This document shows positions 6,727-43,045 of a DNA stretch of 64,000 bases, one piece after another (position 1 is the stretch's first letter; every line of letters begins with the position of its first letter). The stretch lies in NCBI GenBank assembly GCA_012800795.1, contig JAAZIQ010000009.1, forward strand, positions 1 to 64,000, written 5' to 3'. The stretch is from Bacillota bacterium (lineage in GTDB: Bacteria > Bacillota > Dethiobacteria > Dethiobacterales > Dethiobacteraceae). The position numbers and the translations under genes were made by a program. Below the pieces are notes generated by a model, which saw only the letters and a list, made by a program, of their open reading frames with translations, was not told the origin of the DNA and searched no databases.

Positions 6727-8856
6727 ATGAAAAAGTTACTGTTGATTCTGCTACTTTGCTGTTTACTGGTAACGGGAGGTTATTTTTATAAACAACAAGC
6801 GGAAAAAATAATTTCTCAGAATGTGGAACTTTTCTTTTCCATGGCAAAAGAGGATAGTAAATCTGCCCAAAAGTACCTCTCACCAAGTTACCCGCAAAAA
6901 GAAGAACTTTTAACGGCTTTACAAATGGATAATTTAATCTCATTTGAAAAAATCGAGCAAATACGTTTACGCTCCATTAATCGTGCTTTAGTCTTAATTA
7001 CACTAAAAGTCGGCAATCAACTAAAAACAGCTACACTAGAAATAAGCCGTGAAAATGGGCAGTGGTTGTTAGATAATTTACCGGCATTATCAGTTATACC
7101 ATTAGCCTTGGTTACAGAAACTGCAAATAAGACGGTAAAACTGCTGACATCAGACAATAAACACATTATTTTGCATGCCGAAGTTTCCGTTAAGCGCGGT
7201 GATGCCGGGTTGGTCGTAGCCTTAGCTGACACTCTTATTTACTTTAACAGACTTCCAACCGTTAACGTCACAAAACTTTTAACACATAATACAAATTTAC
7301 TGGAGGGAGAAAATACAGGTTTTCACCAGTTAGCTCCCCATGTGATGTATTTTCAAGCCCAAAATGATAACTACACTATTACGGACAGTACATCGGCCAT
7401 AGTGGGTATGCAAAATCTAACCCTCTACCTCCAGGATGAGAAAGTGCAGGCAGTAATGCTGCCGGAAAAATTTGTGCCGGACACAATTCGTGTCTGCTTA
7501 AATACTACCGATTTTACCGGTCTCAGTCATTCTACTGCCACTATATCAGCCACCACAGCTTTTACCTTAACAGAAAAAATTACCGGCAAACAACAACACT
7601 TTAACGCCGGCGACAGATTAACTTTTCAACCCGGTCAAAACAATATCATAGTAAAATTCCCTTCCGGAGCAGTAGAAACCTACCCAAACCGCCTATACAT
7701 TACCCCCAGCGGCAATGGCCGTATCCAAGTACATACTATTCGTCGGGGCAGTCCTCCTTTTGTTCCCGCTTACCGCGGTCATCTGGAGGTTAGCCTACAT
7801 AATGGCTCGCTGCTTTTGGTTAATGAAGTACCCTTGGAAGCTTATCTCTATTCTGTAGTTCCCAGTGAAATGCCCATAAGTTTTGGAGAAGTACCGCTGC
7901 AGGTGCAGGCAGTAGCAGCCCGCTCTTATGCCGTCTCATCAATTTTACGCAGTGGATTCCGTTCTTTTGCTGCTCATGTTGATGACAGTGTAGCTTCGCA
8001 AGTATATAATAATGTGCCTGAATACGAACTAAGCACCAGGGCAGTAAATCATACACAGGGCAAAATCGTAAAATATGGCCTAGATATTGCCGACACACGC
8101 TTTTTTTCCACCTCTGCCGGCGTCACAGCAAATAATGAAGAAGTCTGGCATGACAGCAAAAGCGGCGCTTTCCCAGGAGCATCGCTGCCATATCTAATTG
8201 CGATGCCGCAATTACGTTCAGGTACATTGCCTGAAGTCAATACAGAAGCAGGTGCACAAGTCTTCTTTTCAACCAGCCACTGGGACAGCTACGATAAAGC
8301 TTCGCCCTGGTTTCGCTGGCAGGTAGAAATGACAAGAACCGATCTGGAAAAAGTTATAAGCACCAATTTACAAGAGCGATATCAAGCACAACCTGATTTT
8401 ATTCTGACAAAGGACGGCAACAATTATATTAGCAAAAAAATTAGTGATGACCCTCTAGGGGAACTAAAAGATATCAGAGTTATACGCCGTGGGGCAGGCG
8501 GCAACATTATGGAGTTGGAGATCGAAGGCAGTAAGGGCACCTTCCGTATTCTTAAGGAATATAATATCCGTTTTATATTGCGGCCACAAAGCAATGTTAA
8601 CGATGTTGTTTTATTACGCCATGACGGCTCTAAACTGATAAATTACAGCATTCTCCCCAGCGCCTTTACAGTATTCACTATCCACCGTAATGAGAAAAAC
8701 CAAATCCAATCTGTACTGATCCAAGGCGGTGGAAACGGCCATGGATCTGGAATGAGCCAATGGGGCGCCCGCGGTCTTGCTGCTGACGGTTTTACCTATG
8801 AAGAAATATTGCTTCACTATTATCCCGGATGTACTGTAGAATCTATCTATAAGTAG
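6727..8856 (+). CDS. SpoIID/LytB domain protein
   Basis: 709-residue exported or membrane-anchored protein. An N-terminal hydrophobic helix (LLLILLLCCLLVTGGYF) is a signal anchor, and the first ~330 residues are poorly conserved. The SpoIID/LytB domain follows: EAYLYSVVPSEMP contains the expected catalytic Glu, ARSYAV follows, and the family-closing GNGHGSGMSQWGA block lies near the end. SpoIID is a lytic transglycosylase that remodels peptidoglycan during engulfment. This protein is about twice the length of B. subtilis SpoIID (~340 residues), so it may be a LytB/other SpoIID-like paralogue rather than spoIID itself. GAAAGGAG precedes the ATG. Confidence 0.85.
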   Translation: MKKLLLILLLCCLLVTGGYFYKQQAEKIISQNVELFFSMAKEDSKSAQKYLSPSYPQKEELLTALQMDNLISFEKIEQIRLRSINRALVLITLKVGNQLKTATLEISRENGQWLLDNLPALSVIPLALVTETANKTVKLLTSDNKHIILHAEVSVKRGDAGLVVALADTLIYFNRLPTVNVTKLLTHNTNLLEGENTGFHQLAPHVMYFQAQNDNYTITDSTSAIVGMQNLTLYLQDEKVQAVMLPEKFVPDTIRVCLNTTDFTGLSHSTATISATTAFTLTEKITGKQQHFNAGDRLTFQPGQNNIIVKFPSGAVETYPNRLYITPSGNGRIQVHTIRRGSPPFVPAYRGHLEVSLHNGSLLLVNEVPLEAYLYSVVPSEMPISFGEVPLQVQAVAARSYAVSSILRSGFRSFAAHVDDSVASQVYNNVPEYELSTRAVNHTQGKIVKYGLDIADTRFFSTSAGVTANNEEVWHDSKSGAFPGASLPYLIAMPQLRSGTLPEVNTEAGAQVFFSTSHWDSYDKASPWFRWQVEMTRTDLEKVISTNLQERYQAQPDFILTKDGNNYISKKISDDPLGELKDIRVIRRGAGGNIMELEIEGSKGTFRILKEYNIRFILRPQSNVNDVVLLRHDGSKLINYSILPSAFTVFTIHRNEKNQIQSVLIQGGGNGHGSGMSQWGARGLAADGFTYEEILLHYYPGCTVESIYK

Positions 8857-8929
8857 TAAAAATTGCATTTTATTTTGCTGCACACTATAATAAATAAAAG
8901 AAAAGAAATTTCTACCAGGGGGACAAAAT

Positions 8930-9370
8930 ATGCTTACACAAATACAAAATGACATGAAACAAGCCATGAAAGCCGGCGAAAAGAAAAAAGTAACAACTCT
9001 GCGCATGTTAATTGCAGCCATTAAAAATGAAAGCATCAACAAACGCACTACTCTAAGTGATGAAGATATTATTGCCGTAATTCAAAGGGAAATAAAACAA
9101 AGGCGTAACGCTTGTGAAGAATTTAAAAAAGGCGGCCGTGAAGATTTGGTCCGGGAAAATGAAGAAGAGATTGCTCTTCTAGAAGCCTATTTGCCCCGCC
9201 AGTTAAGTGATGAGGAATTGGCTGCCCTGGTTAATCAAGTTATCAGTGAAGTGAATGCCACCTCTGTCAAAGACATGGGCAAAGTTATGGGAAAACTGAT
9301 GCCGCAGGTCAAAGGTAAGGCCGACGGCAGCCGTGTACAACAAGCGGTTAAAAAAGCTTTATTGCCATAA
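8930..9370 (+). CDS. YqeY/GatB-like domain protein
   Basis: 146-residue protein with the whole YqeY domain (start MLTQIQNDMKQAMKAGEKKK, LRMLIAAIKN, EEIALLEAYLPRQLSDEEL, MGKVMGKLMPQVKGKADG). The domain is related to the tRNA-binding tail of GatB, and a role in tRNA or amidotransferase chemistry is suspected but not proven. Start is supported by AGGGGGA. It closes the plus-strand pair after the SpoIID-like gene and runs into a shared bidirectional terminator. Confidence 0.9.
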   Translation: MLTQIQNDMKQAMKAGEKKKVTTLRMLIAAIKNESINKRTTLSDEDIIAVIQREIKQRRNACEEFKKGGREDLVRENEEEIALLEAYLPRQLSDEELAALVNQVISEVNATSVKDMGKVMGKLMPQVKGKADGSRVQQAVKKALLP

Positions 9371-9410
9371 ACAACAAAATGGAGACCTGCAGGTCTCCGT
9401 TTTGTTGTTT
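9369..9410. terminator. bidirectional terminator
   Basis: Long inverted repeat: AAACAACAAAA/GGAGACCTGCAGGTCTCC/TTTTGTTGTTT with a single T·G break in each arm. It is shared by yqeY (plus) and the SleB-like gene (minus), which converge here. Confidence 0.75.
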
Positions 9411-9414
9411 AAAG

Positions 9415-10167
9415 TTAGTACTTAAAAAAGACGTGAGAGCCAATGGTTGTGGTTACCGGATGGCTGCGTACCCAGGCATTGCTCGTTTTAGCAGGATTAT
9501 AAAAACCAGTCGCACCTGCTGAAGGATCCCAGCCTTTTAAGGCTTCACGTACAGCACGTTTGGCACTTTCACCGGCCGGTAAATTGATCCGCCCGTCTAA
9601 TACCGGACTATATTGATAACGGCCGCTTTCTACTTGATAGATTATGCCGCTGATAGTATTGGGATAAAGATCACTTTTTAGCCGGTTAAGAACCGTGGCA
9701 GCCACCGCCACTTGACCTTCAAATGGCTCTCCAGCAGATTCAGCATGCACTAAACGAGCAAACAAATCAAAGTCGGCTGCCGTAAGATGGATTTCAGAAA
9801 AAGCCATCATAGTTTGCGGCATGGCTTCTGTATTTTTTACTTCCTCAGTTTTGTCTAAAGGCTCTTTATCCAACATTTCCATTATTTTTTCTAAAGTTTC
9901 TCCACCTAAAATACCGTCAGCCTTTAAGTTATGGTCTTTTTGAAATTCGATTAGGCTACCATAAGTTAATGGGCCAAAAACTCCATCGATTCTTCCTTCT
10001 CTGTAGTTATTATCATTGAGAAATTGCTGCAAAACGGCAACGTCTTCCCCGCGATCGCCTATTTTCAATTCCCGCTCACCAAACTGTAGAGTTTGAGCGG
10101 CCGCACCGGTAAAAAGAGTCAAACCGAAAGAAAAGACAATTAGTATTGCAAATATTTTTTTATTCAT
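9415..10167 (-). CDS. peptidoglycan-binding SleB-like cell wall hydrolase
   Basis: 250 residues: cleavable signal peptide (hydrophobic core ILIVFSFGLTLFTGAAAQ), a peptidoglycan_binding_1 domain (GDRGEDVAVLQQFLND... YREGRIDGVFGPLTYGSL), then a Hydrolase_2/SleB domain (FARLVHAESAGEPFEGQVAVAATVLNR, with the catalytic Glu in HAESAGEP). This domain order is that of the spore cortex-lytic enzyme SleB, a lytic transglycosylase acting in germination. YkvT/CwlJ-type vegetative relatives cannot be excluded. AAAGGAGG lies before the ATG. The 289-nt leader is rich in palindromes (see that entry). Confidence 0.85.
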   Translation of the reverse strand: MNKKIFAILIVFSFGLTLFTGAAAQTLQFGERELKIGDRGEDVAVLQQFLNDNNYREGRIDGVFGPLTYGSLIEFQKDHNLKADGILGGETLEKIMEMLDKEPLDKTEEVKNTEAMPQTMMAFSEIHLTAADFDLFARLVHAESAGEPFEGQVAVAATVLNRLKSDLYPNTISGIIYQVESGRYQYSPVLDGRINLPAGESAKRAVREALKGWDPSAGATGFYNPAKTSNAWVRSHPVTTTIGSHVFFKY

Positions 10168-10248
10168 CTTTTAAACCTCCTTTAACCTTCAAGCATTTTT
10201 GTACCTTTAAAACTAAGGTTTATTCGGTTAGCTTGTATGTTGATTATA

Positions 10249-10395
10249 ATAACATGTTATGTAAACTTACGCAAAGCCGGAGGATTATTCCTAAAAGAAA
10301 TTAAACTGCCGCAGCCAGAAACAGTAGTAGATATGGCAAAAGGCTACTTACTTCCACGAGTATCCTGCCGTGTCCATATCTCTGGAAATATTTCC
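10249..10395. other. palindrome-rich intergenic element
   Basis: The gap between the SleB-like gene and yraN holds three strong symmetries. ATAACATGTTAT at 10249-10260 lies near a possible minus-strand promoter (TTGCGT, 17 nt, TATTAT). A two-part hairpin has 8 bp (10329-10336/10374-10381) and inner 7 of 8 bp (10341-10348/10359-10366) pairing. GGAAATATTTCC is at 10384-10395. The hairpin would lie upstream of the candidate promoter, so it need not be the leader of the hydrolase. I do not recognise it as a known riboswitch. Confidence 0.4.
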
Positions 10396-10407
10396 GGTAT
10401 AAAATAA

Positions 10408-10440
10408 AAAAGCCAAGGGTGTATACTTCCCACGGCTTTT
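10408..10440 (-). terminator. terminator after yraN
   Basis: On the minus strand AAAAGCC-GTGGG and CCC-TTGGCTTTT pair around GAAGTATACA and are followed by TTTTTTATTTTA. It ends the long ylxM-to-yraN transcription unit. Confidence 0.7.
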
Positions 10441-10456
10441 ATCTGCCTGAACTAAT

Positions 10457-10798
10457 TTAACCGAAAGCATTTTTATATAAAGTAACTTTTTCTGTCTGTG
10501 CCTCTACCGCCACTACATCGAATCGATAAGCCGGTGCCGTTGTGCCGGTCTGATGAATATAGTAAAGGGCTAAAAGGCGTAGTCTCTCCTGCTTGCGGAT
10601 GTCAACAGCTTCTGCCGGCGTACCATGCCGATCTGTTCGGCGTGTTTTTACTTCTACAAAAACAAGAATCTCACCGTCTTTGGCGACAATATCAAGCTCT
10701 CCACGTTCACAGCGCCAATTTCTCGCTAAAATTTTATAACCATTATCCTTTAAATGGGAGACCGCAATATCTTCACCACGGAGACCTATTTTTCTCAT
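10457..10798 (-). CDS. yraN: UPF0102/YraN family nuclease-like protein
   Basis: 113 residues with the restriction-endonuclease-like core of the YraN family: GLRGEDIAVSHLKDNGYKIL, the acidic ERGELDIVAKDG and the VFVEVKTR strand, which together form the D-E-K nuclease signature. Its function is unknown, although RecB-like nuclease folds suggest a role in nucleic-acid processing. It overlaps the end of rnhB by 4 nt, the usual rnhB-yraN pairing in Firmicutes, and is last in its operon. Confidence 0.9.
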   Translation of the reverse strand: MRKIGLRGEDIAVSHLKDNGYKILARNWRCERGELDIVAKDGEILVFVEVKTRRTDRHGTPAEAVDIRKQERLRLLALYYIHQTGTTAPAYRFDVVAVEAQTEKVTLYKNAFG

Positions 10799-11571
10799 TT
10801 CTGTTCAACTTCCCTTAAAAATGAACGCCGATGATGGCAAGTTAGCCCCATGCGGGCAATGGCCTGGCGATGCGCTTTAGTGGGATATCCTTTATGTTGG
10901 GCAAAACCATAATCCGGATTACTTTTGTCCAGCTCTATCATATAGCGGTCGCGCGTAACTTTAGCCAAAATGGAGGCAGCCGCAATAGAAGCGGACAAAC
11001 TATCACCGCTAATGATACTCTGCTGGGGAATTTTTAACCCTTCAATGGTAATGGCATCGATTAAAACGATATCGGGAACAACAGGCAAAGCACTAATGGC
11101 GCGTTTCATAGCCAACTTGGTAGCTTGAAAAATATTATATCGATCAATCTCTAACACATCACTTTTGGCAACTGACCAAGCAATGGCTGCCTCAGTTATT
11201 TGTGTATATAGTTCTTCTCTCTTTTTCGGTGTTAGTTTCTTAGAATCCTTTAAACCAGGCAAAAGAAAATTTTCAGGTAGGATAACTGCGGCTGCCATCA
11301 CAGGCCCCGCCAGCGGCCCTCTTCCCGCTTCATCTACACCGGCAATATATGTATAACCAAGCTGTCGAGCTTTATTTTCATATTTTAGCAGAGCTGCGAG
11401 CCTTTTTTCCTCTAACCTTTCTGCATTGCTTTTTTGCAAATGTTTTTTTAATAAACGCTGTACTCCTACTCTCGAGTCTGCTGCCAATAAGTCCAGCTCC
11501 CCGCGCTCAGGGCTGTCTTCACTTAGGTAACGGCTAATTTCCGCCACTGTCATTTTACTAAAATCCTTCAT
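10795..11571 (-). CDS. rnhB: ribonuclease HII
   Basis: Cleaves RNA in RNA-DNA hybrids and removes single ribonucleotides from DNA. The catalytic core shows GVDEAGRGPLAGP, VLIDAI, SAASILAKVTRDR and YGFAQHKGYPTKAH. An N-terminal ~70-residue extension matches the substrate-binding domain of Bacillus RNase HII. I start at ATG 11571 (MKDFSKM), preceded by GGGAGAGG. ATG 11553 (MTVAEISRYL), with AAGGA 10 nt ahead, is an equally plausible start, while the frame open to 11628 is too long. It overlaps rbgA and is followed by yraN. Confidence 0.93.
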   Translation of the reverse strand: MKDFSKMTVAEISRYLSEDSPERGELDLLAADSRVGVQRLLKKHLQKSNAERLEEKRLAALLKYENKARQLGYTYIAGVDEAGRGPLAGPVMAAAVILPENFLLPGLKDSKKLTPKKREELYTQITEAAIAWSVAKSDVLEIDRYNIFQATKLAMKRAISALPVVPDIVLIDAITIEGLKIPQQSIISGDSLSASIAAASILAKVTRDRYMIELDKSNPDYGFAQHKGYPTKAHRQAIARMGLTCHHRRSFLREVEQK

Positions 11572-12409
11572 TTTCCTCTCCCACTGCCGCAGCCTTTTCC
11601 AAGGTAATACGACCAAGCCTACCCTCACGAAAATCCTTAATTAATATGCGAGCTGCCGCTTCCAGATCAACTTCGCCGCCTTTTCTTAAGCAACCACGGC
11701 GTTTCCCAATTTCAATCATAATCTCATTGGGATCTTTAATTTCCGTTTCTATTTTATAACGCTGATAAATATTTTGTTGTGCATGCCGCTCGAAATACTT
11801 AATCAATTCATGGCCTAGCTCAAGTAGATTAATAATTTCATCCTTAATTGAACCAACGGCTGCCAGGCAAAAAGCCTGTTCTTTATTTGCAATTTTGGGC
11901 CACAATAAACCTGGCGTGTCTAATAACTCTAGGTCCCCAGGCAGCCTGATCCACTGCTTACCTGTGGTCACACCCGGTTTATCACCGGTAATGGCGGCAT
12001 TACGTCCTATGAGACGGTTTATTAACGATGATTTACCTACGTTGGGAATTCCGGCCACCATTAATCTTAAAGGTCGACGCTTATGTTTGCGGCGCTTAGG
12101 TATAGATTTTAAGCCGGCAAATAATCTTTTTATTCCCGTTCCCATGCGGGCATTAACTGCAGCCGCTATAAAATATTGCCTACCCAATAGCTGTAGCCAT
12201 TTTTCCGTTTCCTCCGGATCAGCCAAATCGGGTCTGGTCAAAACAGCTACTACAGGCCTGTTTTGCAGTATTTGACGTATATCGGGATTTTGACTAGAAG
12301 CAGGAATACGGGCATCTAGCACCTCAATTACAGCATCCACCAGTTTTAAATTTTCACGCAGAAGCCTTTTGGCTTTGGCCATCTGACCAGGGTACCATTG
12401 TACTTCCAT
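11558..12409 (-). CDS. rbgA: ribosome biogenesis GTPase RbgA (YlqF)
   Basis: Circularly permuted GTPase needed for late 50S assembly. The order of motifs is permuted as expected: the G4-type motif TRPDL early, then G1 GIPNVGKSS, then G3 DTPGLLWP. It ends with the C-terminal ANTAR-like region (RRGCLRKGGEVDLEAAARILIKDF). WYPGQMAKA near the start is the family signature. ATG 12409 sits 6 nt after AGGAAG and is preferred to ATG 12415. It lies between lepB and rnhB, the usual Bacillus order. Confidence 0.95.
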   Translation of the reverse strand: MEVQWYPGQMAKAKRLLRENLKLVDAVIEVLDARIPASSQNPDIRQILQNRPVVAVLTRPDLADPEETEKWLQLLGRQYFIAAAVNARMGTGIKRLFAGLKSIPKRRKHKRRPLRLMVAGIPNVGKSSLINRLIGRNAAITGDKPGVTTGKQWIRLPGDLELLDTPGLLWPKIANKEQAFCLAAVGSIKDEIINLLELGHELIKYFERHAQQNIYQRYKIETEIKDPNEIMIEIGKRRGCLRKGGEVDLEAAARILIKDFREGRLGRITLEKAAAVGEENEGF

Positions 12410-35888: not shown

Positions 35889-37940
35889 TCAACTAAACCC
35901 CAAAATACTGCCCACCTGAAAAATAAGAAAGGCTACTAACCAGGCCATAAGCGTCTGATATCCTACTGCAAACAATGCCCATTTCCAGGAATTCATCTCT
36001 CTTTTGATTGCCCCAAAAGCAGCAATACATGGCATATATAAAAGTGTAAAAGCCATAAAAGCATACGCTTTAAGCGGTGTAAAGTATGTTTGTAGAGCAG
36101 CAATCAATTCCATAGAACCTTCTGCCACTTCTCCAACAGCCAGAAGAATTCCAAAAGTAGCGACAACCACCTCTTTGGCCAATAAACCTGATAAAATTGC
36201 CACAGCCGCGCGCCAATCACCAAAACCCAATGGAGCAAAAATGGGTGCAATTGCCTTGCCAATAACACCTAAAATACTTCCGGCAGGGTCTTCCACCATT
36301 TGAAAAGAGAAGTTAAAAGACTGAAGGAACCAAATAAGAACGGCAGCGGCAAAAATCACAGTGCCGGCTTTAGTAATAAAATCTTTGCTTCTATCCCACA
36401 TATGAATCATCAAGTTTTTAAAAGTAGGAACACGATAAGGAGGCAGCTCCATCACAAAGGGCGATGATTCACCTTTAAAAACAGTTTTTTTCAACAAAAA
36501 ACCGGAAAAGATTGCCACCAGTATGCCAAGCAAGTAAATGGAGAAAACCACCCGGCTTTGTTTTGCTACAAAGAAAGCCGCTGCAAACAAGGCATAAACA
36601 GGTAATTTAGCACCACAAGACATAAAAGGTGTTAGAATGATTGTCAGCCGGCGGTCTTTTTCATCTTCCAGTGTTCTGGTAGCCATTACAGCCGGGACAC
36701 TGCAGCCAAAACCCAACAGCATTGGTATAAAAGACTTGCCGCTTAATCCCAGTTTTCTAAAAAAATAATCCATGATGAAAGCGGCACGAGCCATATAGCC
36801 GCTATCTTCCAAAATAGCAAGGAAGAAAAAGAGAATTATAATTTGAGGGATATAGATAAGTACGCTGCCTACTCCGCCAACAATACCGTCAACAATCAGG
36901 CTTTGGAGCCAATCGGCTGCACCGGCAGCTTCCAGCCATGCGGAAAGCTGTCCAACCACCGTTTCACTAAAAAAGACTTCAATATATTCTACCGCAAATG
37001 TGCCCACCGTTCCAAAAGTTAGCTTAAACACTATATACATTATGGCAAAAAATAAGGGAATGGCCAAAAAACGGTTTGTAACTATGAGGTCAATTTTATC
37101 TGAGACAGTCATGGAATCACTTGGTCTTTTTCTTTTGACTGTCCTGCTGACAACTTGAGAGATATATCTGTACCTCTCATCGGCTAAGATTGATTCAACA
37201 TCATTGTCATATTCTTTTTCCAGTCTTTCACGGTAGGGTTTTATAGCCTCCAGAAGAGCTTCCGAAGCATTAATCCTAGCAATTACTTTTTCGTCGCTTT
37301 CCAATAACTTTAAAACCATCCATCTGGAGTTGAAATCTGCGCCCTTGATTTGAGAAGTTAGTATTTTCTCTGTTTCCTCTATACATTTTTCGATCATTTC
37401 CGTGAAAATAGCCGGTGACGGCGGCTTTATTAATGTGCCGGCTGAGGCAGCTTTTGCCACTTGAAGGGCTTTCTGTATCAATTCATTAATGCCCTTGCCT
37501 TTGGTTGCAACTGTAGGTACAAAAGCTATTCCCATAGTTTGTTCCAGGGCTTGGATGTCAATCCTATCGCCTTTGGCTTCAATTTCATCCATCATGTTTA
37601 GAGCAACAACCATGGGCAAACCAAACTCCATCAACTGGGTTGTAAGGTAAAGATTTCTTTCAAGGTTAGTGGCATCAACTATATTAATTATCACATCGGG
37701 TTTTTCGTCAAGGAGGTAATCCCTAGCAATGACTTCTTCTAAACTATAGGGAGATAAAGAATATATGCCCGGGAGATCAACTATTTTAACATCTTCTTTT
37801 AATTTTTTTACCCTACCTTCTTTTTTTTCCACCGTAACACCCGGCCAGTTGCCAACATACTGGGTACTTCCGGTAAGCTCATTGAAAAGACATGTTTTTC
37901 CGCTATTGGGGTTTCCCACTAGAGCAAACTTTAACGACAT
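35889..37940 (-). CDS. feoB: ferrous iron transport protein B
   Basis: 683 residues. N-terminal G-protein domain: G1 GNPNSGKTC, G3 DLPGIYSLSPYS, G4 NMMDE, then the helical switch-linked domain and a membrane part with two Gate repeats and Cys-bearing motifs (LLGFGCSVPAVMATRT and MSCGAKLPVY). It imports Fe(II). Part of the dtxR-feoA-feoB-Cys-rich cluster; feoA stops 71 nt before its start. Confidence 0.96.
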   Translation of the reverse strand: MSLKFALVGNPNSGKTCLFNELTGSTQYVGNWPGVTVEKKEGRVKKLKEDVKIVDLPGIYSLSPYSLEEVIARDYLLDEKPDVIINIVDATNLERNLYLTTQLMEFGLPMVVALNMMDEIEAKGDRIDIQALEQTMGIAFVPTVATKGKGINELIQKALQVAKAASAGTLIKPPSPAIFTEMIEKCIEETEKILTSQIKGADFNSRWMVLKLLESDEKVIARINASEALLEAIKPYRERLEKEYDNDVESILADERYRYISQVVSRTVKRKRPSDSMTVSDKIDLIVTNRFLAIPLFFAIMYIVFKLTFGTVGTFAVEYIEVFFSETVVGQLSAWLEAAGAADWLQSLIVDGIVGGVGSVLIYIPQIIILFFFLAILEDSGYMARAAFIMDYFFRKLGLSGKSFIPMLLGFGCSVPAVMATRTLEDEKDRRLTIILTPFMSCGAKLPVYALFAAAFFVAKQSRVVFSIYLLGILVAIFSGFLLKKTVFKGESSPFVMELPPYRVPTFKNLMIHMWDRSKDFITKAGTVIFAAAVLIWFLQSFNFSFQMVEDPAGSILGVIGKAIAPIFAPLGFGDWRAAVAILSGLLAKEVVVATFGILLAVGEVAEGSMELIAALQTYFTPLKAYAFMAFTLLYMPCIAAFGAIKREMNSWKWALFAVGYQTLMAWLVAFLIFQVGSILGFS

Positions 37941-38335: not shown

Positions 38336-38731
38336 TCATTTTTCTGCTTCTTGAGCCTTTTCCATATACTCTTCAATTTTTTTCAATGTCGTTGGACTTA
38401 CGACATGTTCCATTAAGCAAGCATCTTCGTCTGCCGTCTGGTAATCAACACCCAACACATCAATCAAAAACCTTCTTATCATGCTGTGACGGTGTCGAAT
38501 TTCTAAGGCATGTTTTTTCCCGGCACTTGTGAGCTCAATGGGGCCATAGCTTTCCTGCTGCACTAAACCCATATTCTTTAATTTATTTATCGTGATGGTA
38601 ACAGTTGACTTTGCAATATTCATTTTGTCAGCAATATCGGTTACTCTGGTCCCATTTTCTTTTTCCTCAAGCTCAAGTATTACCTCAAGATAATCCTCCA
38701 AAGCAGGAGTTAAATTAATAGTCTCTACCAA
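38336..38731 (-). CDS. DtxR/MntR family metal-dependent regulator
   Basis: 131 residues: winged helix (LTPALEDYLEVILELEE, TDIADKMNIAKSTVTITINKL) and a dimerisation/metal domain. C105-E108-H109 (CLMEH) corresponds to the C-x-x-E-H ligands of the iron-sensing DtxR/IdeR group rather than the Glu found in MntR. No C-terminal SH3 domain. Adjacent to feoAB, so it is probably the Fe(II)-sensing repressor of that operon. Confidence 0.9.
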   Translation of the reverse strand: MVETINLTPALEDYLEVILELEEKENGTRVTDIADKMNIAKSTVTITINKLKNMGLVQQESYGPIELTSAGKKHALEIRHRHSMIRRFLIDVLGVDYQTADEDACLMEHVVSPTTLKKIEEYMEKAQEAEK

Positions 38732-39105: not shown

Positions 39106-39141
39106 CAAAAAAATGCCCGGCTTTTTAAACCGGGCATTTTA
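39106..39141. terminator. terminator shared with acsB
   Basis: AAAATGCCCGG (39110-39120) and CCGGGCATTTT (39130-39140) form a perfect 11-bp stem with flanking A and T runs; serves the small membrane gene and acsB, which converge. Confidence 0.8.
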
Positions 39142-39143
39142 TC

Positions 39144-41270
39144 TTACATAATCGGATCCAAGCCTAAAGCAGGATGTTCTTTTTCGGTGAGGAATTTTAG
39201 CACTTCATCTATATTTGTAGAGATAGTTTCATCACAAATCATATCGGCAAAGTTATCAATGCCATATAGCTCTTTTGCTGTTTTATTTAATTTATCTGCC
39301 ACTTCATCTTTTAATTCTTTCGGCATCCAAACTATTCTCGCTATGCCACCCTCGGCCTTCATGAACTTTTTCGAGGCGATAAAGTGCCTACCGTGTCCCA
39401 TAAAACCTGGGGTCTGCACTCCGCCACCAGTCATAGAAGCCAATTGACCAAAAGTCATGCCTACGGGTGTTTCCTGCGAGTATTCCCTGTTTACAATAAT
39501 GACACCATTTGCTTCGGGGAAAATACTGCAGATGCACTCAAAACAGCCGCATGAAGTCATGGGGTCTTCCAAAATACTGTAGAGAGCGACACGGGAAACT
39601 TTACCCTGAGAAGCTTTATCAACAGCTTTGTTTACTTCTGCCCAAACACCTCTTACTTCATCTTCAAGTCCTTCTTTGGGCACATCCTGGCAAGGACCGC
39701 TTGGATTTAACTCTTTGGTAGCTTTAGCATCCAGCCAGCTAACAGCACCGCAAAGACCTAATCTCTCCGGTGTAACAATACAAACATGTGCAGGTGCAAA
39801 GGATTGACACAAGGTGCAGGAGTAGAATGTATCTACACTTTCGTCGGTTAAAGACGCCAGTCTTTCATCACGTGCATTATATCTGGGGATGGCTACTGAT
39901 TTTTCCAGTTCAAGTACTTTTTCCTTATCAGTTATAATAGTGACCTGACATTTATCAATTACCGAACCAAACTCATCAAGCATCATATGATAGAGAACTT
40001 CACCGAAATGCTTCAACCTTAAACCTTTGGCATAAGCATCTTTACTAATGCGCACCCAGGCAAGATTCCTTTGCCCTATATGCATAACTCCTTCAATGTA
40101 GTTAAGGTAGTAATGTATTTTTCTTTCTAAAACCGGCTCAAAGTCCAGCTCCATATTTTTTCCTGCCACATCGACTATGACGGCCAAGGGCAGATAAACC
40201 GGAGGCTCCAGAGCATCGATGTCGGGGCCAATCAGCTCAATTTTATGATCTTCAACCTCATCCAGCTCTCTCATGCGCACCAGTTCCCAGGCTTTACTTC
40301 TCTTGCTACCAAATTCAGCATAAACGACATCTTTTCTGATTCTTTCTCCTTCGAAGGCTGCTGCGAAAGCCACAGGAATGGGAATTTCAGTTACTTTGAT
40401 TTTTATATTTCTGGCATCAAGCGAAGTTTTTACTGTCTTTTGGTGATTTTTTTCTGTAATTAGTGCGCCTGGAACTTCCGGCACATCAACATCGGCAATG
40501 ACCGGAAAACCTAAAGCTATGGCTCCAGCCCCTGCGGATACTACCACTTCATTAAGCGGGCCAAAGGTATTAACAAAAGCCGGAATTCTCTCCTTGGTAT
40601 AAGTAAGCAGACCTGATAAATCACCGGCTTTAATGGCTCCAAAGATAAAAGCTGCCCGTACGGCCACGGATACAACATGGATAACCGCAGTAACATCATG
40701 GCCTACCGGAATTACCCTGAATTCCAACCCCACTTTAACATCGGAAGCCAAAACTTGATCAATGACATTACCTACCAAAAAGGTAAGAATGCCTTTGGAC
40801 TGATAATCTTTTACTATAGTAGTAAGGCTATCAGTGTCATCTGCTTCACCAATCAAAACGGCAATACCGGGGATATCCCCTGAGACCAGCGGTACACCCA
40901 ATGATCTTATAACAGCATCGGGAATGAAACCAATACCTGCTTCTTCTTCATAGGGATTGTCAGCAAGTGCATATTTTACCGCTTCAATTATCTCAGCCGA
41001 AACAGCTGTTGCCAATCCAGCATTTAAAGCCTTATCCAATTCCTCTTCTTCTACAATCAGGCTACGTACAACATTTAGAGCAGACTGCAGTTGTTCTAAT
41101 GTTGTTATTTTTTCCCCTGTAGCACCATAAATAATAGGCAATGCATACGCAGTGTCAGGAAAAGCAACTTTTTGTTCTTTGCCCTTTGCTGCTATAGCAT
41201 CATTAACGGCTTTTTCCGCCAAAGCCAAAGCAGCGTTAGACCCTGCAAAAATGGTCTTGAATAAATTCAC
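39144..41270 (-). CDS. acsB: acetyl-CoA synthase (CODH/ACS beta subunit)
   Basis: Joins CO, a methyl group from the corrinoid Fe-S protein and CoA to make acetyl-CoA at the Ni-Ni-[4Fe-4S] A-cluster. 708 residues, near the 729 of Moorella AcsB, with the N-terminal CODH-contact domain present. C485, C488, C497 and C507 match the cluster-ligand spacing of Moorella (506, 509, 518, 528), and C574-G-C576 matches C595-G-C597, all shifted by 21. The start is GTG, 7 nt after AAGGAGG. No CODH (acsA), corrinoid protein (acsCD) or methyltransferase (acsE) gene lies nearby in this window, which is unusual. Confidence 0.96.
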   Translation of the reverse strand: MNLFKTIFAGSNAALALAEKAVNDAIAAKGKEQKVAFPDTAYALPIIYGATGEKITTLEQLQSALNVVRSLIVEEEELDKALNAGLATAVSAEIIEAVKYALADNPYEEEAGIGFIPDAVIRSLGVPLVSGDIPGIAVLIGEADDTDSLTTIVKDYQSKGILTFLVGNVIDQVLASDVKVGLEFRVIPVGHDVTAVIHVVSVAVRAAFIFGAIKAGDLSGLLTYTKERIPAFVNTFGPLNEVVVSAGAGAIALGFPVIADVDVPEVPGALITEKNHQKTVKTSLDARNIKIKVTEIPIPVAFAAAFEGERIRKDVVYAEFGSKRSKAWELVRMRELDEVEDHKIELIGPDIDALEPPVYLPLAVIVDVAGKNMELDFEPVLERKIHYYLNYIEGVMHIGQRNLAWVRISKDAYAKGLRLKHFGEVLYHMMLDEFGSVIDKCQVTIITDKEKVLELEKSVAIPRYNARDERLASLTDESVDTFYSCTLCQSFAPAHVCIVTPERLGLCGAVSWLDAKATKELNPSGPCQDVPKEGLEDEVRGVWAEVNKAVDKASQGKVSRVALYSILEDPMTSCGCFECICSIFPEANGVIIVNREYSQETPVGMTFGQLASMTGGGVQTPGFMGHGRHFIASKKFMKAEGGIARIVWMPKELKDEVADKLNKTAKELYGIDNFADMICDETISTNIDEVLKFLTEKEHPALGLDPIM

Positions 41271-41602
41271 AGCTATTCCTCCTTAAGTATTATTTTCAAA
41301 ATTACTACGTAAAGAAAAACGCATAGAAACCAATTAGATTGCTCTTGTCCCGTTTTTCACATGCCTGAAGTTAACAACTATACGCGCGTTTTTTTTGGTT
41401 ATAGGTTTAATATATAGTTCGACAATTTAAACTTACTTCCCTGCCTCGCAATAAATTATATTCAGCAGAATGAAGATTCAATTAGATGCATTAAAACTAT
41501 TTTGCTGTTCCAAAAGTAGTAACCGAAAGATATATTTCAACATAATATATGTTGAAAGCATACACGCAATACTAATTTTGCGGAGGGAGGGAACAGATAA
41601 TA
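41271..41602. promoter_or_regulatory. divergent acsB/Cys-rich intergenic region with palindrome
   Basis: 332 nt between two divergent genes. TTCAACATA-ATA-TATGTTGAA (41536-41556) is a perfect 9-bp inverted repeat 46 nt ahead of the plus-strand gene. ACGCGCGT followed by eight T lies near 41382-41397. No further gene is visible. Confidence 0.5.
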
Positions 41603-41962
41603 ATGAGATGCGGTAAATTTAAACACGACTTTAAGTGCGGCATAGAAAAGGGTAAGGATAAAATCGTTAAAGTTGATCATGCCAAGTGTGATTGCTGCAA
41701 AGAGTTTTTGCGTTATTATGAAAGAGATGAGGCAATCAGAGTTTGGGTAAGGCAGGTTGTAAACAATACACCTGCTGACCAGCCCCCGTTTGGCCTTGAT
41801 GGCAGCGGAGTTTTCCGCATCAAGAAAATTGGCTGCGACTGCATTGTCTTAATCATGCTTAACCCAGAAGAAGGCTACAGCCCCTGGCGCGAGTATGTCG
41901 TAAAATGTAAAGATATTGTTGCCATGCGTGGAGGCCCCATTCAAACTAATTTAGTACCCTAA
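41603..41962 (+). CDS. Cys-rich hypothetical protein
   Basis: 119 residues, no signal peptide or membrane segment. Cysteines cluster at C3, C12 and C29/C31/C32 (KCDCC), with a later CDC pair and one near residue 102. The core FRIKKIGCDCIVLIMLN is beta-like. The layout loosely recalls CotY/CotZ spore coat proteins, but I cannot claim homology. GGAGGGAGG precedes the ATG. It has a palindrome upstream and a strong terminator behind. Divergent from acsB. Confidence 0.6.
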   Translation: MRCGKFKHDFKCGIEKGKDKIVKVDHAKCDCCKEFLRYYERDEAIRVWVRQVVNNTPADQPPFGLDGSGVFRIKKIGCDCIVLIMLNPEEGYSPWREYVVKCKDIVAMRGGPIQTNLVP

Positions 41963-42027: not shown

Positions 42028-42618
42028 CTAATATGGTTCAGTAAAAATCTCAAAATGTGCCTGAGGATGAATGCAGGCCGGACACTCTTCAGGAGCAGTT
42101 GTACCCTCATGAAGATAGCCGCAATTACCGCACTTCCAGATGACAGGCTTATCTTTTTTAAAGACGGTTCCATTTTCTAAATTTGCTAACAGCTTCCGGA
42201 AGCGTTCCTCATGCCCTTTTTCAGATACGGCAATACTTCTAAAGGCTGCGGCTATTTCCGGGAATCCCTCTTCCTCAGCAATTTCAGCAAATGCCGGATA
42301 AAGGTCATCCCATTCCTCATTTTCCCCTTCGGCCGCCGCCCTTAAATTGGTACGTGTATCTCCTTGGGCGACAGGATAACTTGCATTAATTTCTATCTTG
42401 CTGGGCAGCTCGTCCAAACCTGCCAACAAAAACTTAAAAAATCTCTTAGCATGTTCTTTTTCATGTTCTGCTGTTTCATTAAAAATGTTTCTAATTTGCT
42501 TATAACCTTCCTTGTCCGCAACCGAGGCATAATAATTATAACGGTTACGGGCTTGAGCTTCGCCTGCGAATGCCCTAAGTAGATTTTCAGCTGTTTTTGT
42601 TCCAGTTAAACTTTTCAT
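42028..42618 (-). CDS. rbr: rubrerythrin
   Basis: 196-residue NADH-linked peroxidase component of anaerobes. Ferritin-like di-iron domain with [18 protein letters not shown] and EKGHEERF ligands, and a C-terminal rubredoxin domain (KCGNCGY ... ECPACIHP). Start at ATG 42618 ([13 protein letters not shown]) after AAGGAGG; codons upstream belong to perR. It overlaps perR by 32 nt and is surely co-transcribed with it. Confidence 0.96.
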
Positions 42619-43045
42619 TGTTTTCCTCCTTCTGCTGGCACTCCGGGCAGAGGCCATAATAATAATATCTTTTTTCCTTTATCATAAAATCATTAAGTTC
42701 TTCCTTCTCTTCCAGCCTAGGAACATGGAAAAAATCATATATTTGTTTACAAGACAAGCACTGAAAATGGCCGTGCTCCTCTATATTGGCATCATAACGT
42801 GTCTCTTTTTCATCAATATTAACTGATTTGACAAGATTTAAACGCAAAAACAATGATAAAGCATTATAAACAGATGTTTTTGAAAGTGTGAGAATTTCTT
42901 TCTGCAGTTCCTGATATATTTCATCGGCAGTTGGATGGGTAGGATTTTTCAATAAAAAAGTTAAAACTTTAAGCCTAATTGGTGATGGTTTTATCCCTTT
43001 TTCTAACAGCATCTTCGCTGCTTTTTCAGAATAAATCAAGGCCAT
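42587..43045 (-). CDS. perR: Fur family peroxide regulator (PerR-like)
   Basis: 152 residues: winged helix ([37 protein letters not shown]) and metal domain. Structural zinc cysteines CLSC and CPEC are present. The regulatory site keeps the PerR type, with RYD, HGH and YDF giving His/Asp ligands, including Asp where Fur has Glu. It controls rubrerythrin, which follows in the same transcript, and very likely itself through the upstream palindrome. Confidence 0.88.

Follow-up and report, generated by a model that had tools for sequence, protein, structure and literature searches.

What does an acetyl-CoA synthase (ACS) gene do when it stands alone? On the usual view, ACS is a CODH-bound subunit that receives CO through an internal tunnel. 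In the window, the whole 64,000-nucleotide stretch of bacterial DNA analysed here, an acsB gene nevertheless lies by itself, and a sequence-only reading had offered relocation, separate regulation, or use without a full Wood–Ljungdahl pathway as explanations. On balance, we favour a working class-2 ACS, laterally acquired from a clostridial type and operating without a dedicated CODH, most likely as the sole remnant of a class-2 operon. A cell that combines a class-1 CODH/ACS with a selected class-2 ACS lacking its matching CODH would offer a natural test of an ACS working alone on dissolved CO, or swapped between CODH classes.

The window frame is an intact, open acsB (Table 1). Its product scores 1069.6 bits against NF040764, the NCBIfam equivalog for bacterial AcsB (cut-off 800; residues 9–708), and keeps the A-cluster ligands Cys485, Cys488, Cys497, Cys507 and Cys574-Gly575-Cys576, which are invariant among 11 aligned copies. 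All six cysteines are thus in place at the Moorella spacing, as had been claimed, at positions constantly 21 lower than the Moorella residue numbers. The gene is complete in all three genomes of the two sister genera that carry it in isolation, g1 and g7, one of them the genus of the window genome (G000, with G001 and G007), and is under strong purifying selection: between G000 and G001 its dN/dS is 0.039 (dS 0.78), against 0.090, 0.077 and 0.055 for the neighbouring genes feoB, htpG and tkt, and 0.027 for the class-1 acsB (337 comparable codons). The ratios were taken from this pair; dS between G000 and G007 is saturated. With its ligands kept and a dN/dS of about 0.04, the enzyme should catalyse acetyl-CoA formation, in keeping with the activity predicted earlier. 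Base composition gives no signal of transfer, since the GC content of the gene (42.7%) is not notably different from that of the window (41.8%).

The isolation of the gene is as plain as its integrity. Twelve tblastn queries (acsA, acsC, acsD, acsE and acsV of both classes, the cooC of the class-2 operon, and acsB), run against the window and the remaining 11.6 kb of its 75.6-kb contig, returned nothing except the orphan itself, and the earlier statement that no other acs gene lies within 39 kb to the left or 22 kb to the right therefore holds. The gene does sit between an iron-uptake side (FeoB and an MntR/DtxR-like regulator) and a peroxide-defence side (rubrerythrin and a PerR/Fur-like regulator), as described; the rubrerythrin/PerR side is common to g1 and g7, whereas the FeoB side is not. 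That it forms its own expression unit is likewise borne out by the hairpin and U-run that follow its stop codon (−25.6 kcal/mol, z −6.7, with 0 of 200 shuffles as good). Upstream, a Shine–Dalgarno sequence and two further elements are conserved, and an alignment of this region read by eye revealed no sigma-54 promoter 5′ of the window acsB. The divergent cysteine-rich frame beyond them has no match in Pfam or NCBIfam, and an Rfam scan of the window returned a tRNA only.

Table 1. The orphan acsB of the window, its neighbours and its expression signals
Feature	Position	Strand	Remarks
FeoB	35889..37940		same side of acsB as the MntR/DtxR-like regulator
MntR/DtxR-family regulator, downstream neighbour	38336..38731	-	below equivalog cut-off; present in G001, not seen at the G007 locus
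Intrinsic terminator, GC-rich hairpin and U-run	39107..39140	-	directly 3′ of the acsB stop codon
acsB2-type orphan class-2 (C. autoethanogenum-like) acetyl-CoA synthase gene	39144..41270	-	708 aa, GTG start
Shine–Dalgarno AAGGAGG	41278..41284	-	kept in G000, G001 and G007
Upstream element GTGAAA ... ACA, possible promoter or operator	41343..41360	-	kept in three genomes of two genera
Upstream element GGCAGG.AAGT ... TGTCGAA	41407..41446	-	kept in three genomes of two genera
119-aa cysteine-rich ORF, divergent from acsB	41603..41962	+	72% identity to its G001 counterpart; missing from the G007 locus
Rubrerythrin	42028..42657	-	adjoins acsB in both genera, with its real start likely close to 42618
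PerR/Fur-family regulator	42587..43045	-	below equivalog cut-off; adjoins acsB in both genera

Is the orphan, then, a duplicate of an acsB in an intact cluster elsewhere, as the sequence-only reading allowed? The cluster exists; the duplication does not. Genes for acsA, acsC, acsD, acsE and a second acsB were all found elsewhere in G000 (1.67 Mb in 99 contigs, 90.4% complete), on contigs C18 and C29. On C18, acsB is followed by acsC-acsV-acsD-acsE and metV/metF-like genes, and cooC and acsA lie at the end of C29; the g1/g7 genomes are all fragmented MAGs, and the cluster that is split across two contigs in G000 is continuous in G007. G000 also encodes formyl-THF ligase and, on contig C1 (L203, 9465–12176), a formate dehydrogenase whose Sec motif HCARLUHSS contains a TGA in frame and which is probably a selenocysteine enzyme; it adjoins metF and a CooS-V-like gene. 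The carbonyl branch is thus complete on other contigs, and the proposed use without a full Wood–Ljungdahl pathway falls away because the full system is present elsewhere in the genome.

The two ACS differ in kind. Bacterial CODH/ACS falls into class 1 (Moorella, Carboxydothermus) and class 2 (C. autoethanogenum), which differ in subunit arrangement (PMC12289521, in excerpt). The window ACS scores 1139 bits against the C. autoethanogenum ACS 6ytt, in a match spanning all 708 residues, as compared with 742 for Carboxydothermus and 700 for Moorella, which places it in class 2. Conversely, the ACS encoded on C18 scores 1180 bits against Moorella versus 762 against 6ytt, and the cluster CODH 817 bits against 7zkj versus 483 against 6ytt_B, so that both are class 1. 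In a tree of 135 rows (144 acsB-like ORFs were collected and nine partial ones left out), the window ACS and the cluster acsB of G000 occupy separate deep clades, and with an identity of 49% and a difference of class besides, a simple paralogue of the cluster gene was rejected. By sequence the window ACS is a class-2 enzyme; a class-2 CODH to accompany it was not found in G000 (90% complete). The CODH homologues of that genome are one of class 1, one CooS-V-like and one weak match below the cut-off. The CooS-V-like gene on contig C1 was considered as a separate CO-supplying CODH and rejected: its best match is 7b7q, a code mentioned in the CooS-V paper, it has Glu303 at the equivalent of Cys295 in an alignment with six true CODHs and an incomplete set of C-cluster ligands, and it is kept not only in G000, G001 and G007 but also in G002, which is without the orphan acsB.

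The origin of the gene is best read from its relatives. Of 59 relatives, 8 have copies that share 64% identity or more with it; these belong without exception to the genera g1, g7, g8 and g9 and make up 8 of the 19 genomes of the family holding them; among the 59 relatives, no class-2 genes were found in members of the class beyond the four genera. In g9 the class-2 operon runs acsA-cooC-acsB1-cooC-acsD-acsC-acsE-acsB2-acsV and its CODH is of class 2 (921 bits to 6ytt_B); the same order occurs in Alkalibaculum sporogenes, in a Eubacteriaceae MAG and in the MAG UBA3936, and in g8 pieces of the operon are spread over several contigs. None of the five genomes of g8 (G008, G014, G017) and g9 (G009, G015) shows a class-1 ACS. 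The window acsB, its counterparts in G001 (94% identical) and G007 (86%), and the acsE-side acsB2 copies of g8/g9 and Alkalibaculum form a clade of ten rows (support 100/99), and the operon acsB1 copies fall apart from it. The window gene is therefore orthologous to acsB2, the copy beside acsE. The comparison of synteny that had been called for shows that in all three g1/g7 genomes the gene is not between acsE and acsV but isolated near rubrerythrin and PerR; its g8/g9 counterparts belong to the class-2 operon. Relocation, as first suggested, came close, in that the orphan corresponds to one gene of an operon that sister genera still possess.

A tree of rpoB, to which rpoC was added and from which the unrelated tail of the G002 rpoB (past residue ~985) was trimmed, recovers the four genera g1, g7, g8 and g9 as a single clade (100/99); within it g8 and g9 are sisters (98/98), and g1 pairs weakly with g7 (81/73). 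The simplest history is that a class-2 operon entered the common ancestor of the four genera. In g8/g9 it would then have replaced the ancestral class-1 genes, and in g1/g7 the class-1 cluster would have prevailed, the class-2 operon being lost except for acsB2. If so, the lateral replacement of a carbon-fixing core can here be placed on a tree: two sister genera switched class and two kept the old system plus one new gene. The main rival on history, which we regard as possible though doubtful, is that a lone acsB was taken up from a clostridial donor and that g1/g7 never had the rest of the operon. In its favour, the best acsB tree weakly sets two Eubacteriaceae copies between the g1/g7 and g8/g9 copies (88/59), a placement that counts against an operon remnant and would make separate uptake of the lone gene possible. 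When the entire g9 operon served as a DNA query, moreover, acsB2 alone was matched over its full length in G000, G001 and G007; the rest gave only short patches, with no other operon remnants in any of the three; the positive controls G008 and G014 matched over most of the operon. Against lone uptake, the four genera are one clade, the other relatives in the class are without class-2 genes, and the hypothesis that the acsB2 genes of the family arose once is not rejected in a careful tree of 37 of the 135 rows, chosen by locus (AU p 0.273).

How would an orphan class-2 ACS work? Under the operon-remnant reading, the retained acsB2 would be transcribed alone, from its own ribosome-binding site and conserved upstream region to its own terminator, and such a separate unit would allow the cell to make more ACS irrespective of CODH; when the enzyme is used, and how it is regulated, we can only infer. 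Its A-cluster would join a methyl group, CO and CoA to acetyl-CoA. The methyl group would come from the class-1 corrinoid protein (AcsCD, AcsE); the methyl donor found in G000 is indeed the class-1 CoFeSP. The CO would most likely come from solution, whether leaked by the class-1 CODH or external, and we favour this source because there is no class-2 CODH to dock to. ACS can bind dissolved CO with a Kd of 0.74 uM even with its tunnel blocked (PMC12289521, in excerpt). A relaxed CODH interface was looked for in the orphan and rejected: in the N-terminal, CODH-contacting domain only 3 of 118 otherwise invariant positions are changed, and identity to the outgroup is 64.9% for the orphan versus 64.6% for the operon copies. 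Docking on the class-1 CODH may accordingly still occur, because this domain is unrelaxed. Such constancy counts against our preferred explanation, as it would be odd if CODH docking had been abandoned, and so does the structure 6ytt, in which the class-2 ACS of C. autoethanogenum reportedly binds CODH.

Alternatively, the class-2 ACS might dock on the class-1 CODH in some conditions and replace the class-1 ACS there as an alternative subunit. G000 has one true CODH only, and the N-terminal domain of the orphan is conserved as in the operon copies, both of which fit such a mixed complex. We nonetheless consider it unlikely: the subunit arrangement differs between the classes (PMC12289521, in excerpt), the two ACS are just 49% identical, and the N-terminal domain, with its three class-specific changes, shows no adaptation to a new partner.

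It is also conceivable, if quite improbable, that the enzyme has been repurposed, for example for acetyl-CoA/CO exchange in acetate or pyruvate oxidation, or for protective metal or CO binding tied to the PerR–rubrerythrin stress locus. Both genera retain the gene next to rubrerythrin and PerR, and some Dethiobacteria MAGs, a group that may include G000, are suspected acetate oxidisers (PMC11932165, in excerpt). The active site, however, is unchanged, and no fitting operator stood out upstream: a PerR-like one was not apparent there, and the Rex-type pattern has 7 matches against 5.6 expected, with only a poor one near the orphan. That the gene is a decaying relic without function, a thought invited by its isolation and its redundancy with the class-1 ACS, is very improbable indeed, given an intact frame in three of three genomes from two genera, a dN/dS below those of feoB, htpG and tkt, and the conservation of all ligands and of the Shine–Dalgarno sequence.

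How does this compare with known systems? The closest structural match is the class-2 ACS of C. autoethanogenum (6ytt and others), which has the same length and A-cluster ligands; that enzyme, however, belongs to a CODH/ACS complex that includes a CODH of its own, whereas the window ACS has neither a class-2 CODH nor a class-2 operon. A second acsB within the acs cluster is described for TWA4, B. hydrogenotrophica and R. obeum (PMC4275979, in excerpt). In TWA4 it is 63% identical, and like the window genome TWA4 has two acsB per genome, but clusters of this type hold both, whereas the second copy of the window genome stands alone and belongs to another class than the cluster ACS. Acetobacterium, too, has more than one acsB per genome, with an extra acsB in A. 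bakii (PMC6239172, in excerpt) and acsB1 in A. woodii (PMC3315566, in excerpt). There, in contrast to the window genome, all copies are of one class-2 lineage, and the isolated one lies behind a V4R/sigma-54 gene. A functional ACS without bound CODH, as proposed for the window enzyme, also has a precedent in the free ACS of Carboxydothermus hydrogenoformans, reportedly described by Svetlitchnyi in 2004, although this is a class-1 enzyme. Its gene in C. hydrogenoformans lies in a CODH/ACS cluster. Searches of open-licence PMC papers found no report of an isolated class-2 acsB in a genome that also has a class-1 cluster.

As an arrangement, an unlinked extra acsB is not unique to the window genome. 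From the best 80 of at least 519 confirmed places, 79 clostridial loci were fetched; 18 of them hold two acsB, and 12, many of them short, hold no other acs gene. Counted from the locus list, 36 of the matches listed are loci of at least 22,115 bases, and in four of these (L106, L124, L137 and L140) acsB stands isolated, with some 10 kb clear to either side. A search of eight genomes whose acsB is isolated or dispersed found another acsB in seven, adjoining cooC and acsA in every case; in the eighth, G064, no other acsB was found. Two Acetobacterium MAGs combine an isolated acsB with an acs cluster elsewhere in the genome. In these (L137 and L124, at about 7832–12136) the isolated gene is preceded by one for a sigma-54 activator with a V4R domain, a domain call tested in L137 and extended to L124 from equal length and a near-identical start. 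Just upstream of the isolated acsB both loci carry TGGCATAAAACTTGCT, one mismatch from the −24/−12 consensus; such sites with at most two mismatches occur at chance level in the two loci (12 against 11.4 expected and 14 against 10.8), and the value of this one lies in its position and its presence in both genomes. Together these features suggest an ACS with its own, putatively ligand-responsive, control.

A wider pattern can be put forward tentatively, though as an unlikely one: acetogens may time and again retain a second ACS uncoupled, genetically and functionally, from CODH, one copy lying beside acsA-cooC and fed by the tunnel, the other unlinked, separately regulated and working on dissolved CO. 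Were this true, the cell could adjust its capture of CO separately from CO2 reduction, and in the window genus the two ACS would even be of different structural classes. The caution for annotators is that CODH/ACS complexes cannot be read one to one from the number and class of the acsB copies in a MAG.

Several smaller observations accompany the survey. In L140, a clostridial MAG, the gene following the isolated acsB (10001–12127) starts like DnaA, as named by eye, and the region is apparently that of a replication origin. Contig C82 of G016 carries rpoB and rpoC each twice, about 16 kb apart, probably as an assembly artefact. Three genomes of one genus (G021, G028 and G030) have ORFs of 139–154 aa that match only the first ~100 residues of ACS, at 35–37%. 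Finally, six of the 59 relatives (G004, G005, G013, G016, G018 and G055) also possess an archaeal-like arrangement, in which a frame of ~400 aa, matched only to the C-terminal two thirds of ACS, adjoins one of ~770–790 aa that matches the N-terminal part; in G004 the shorter frame contains three in-frame stops.
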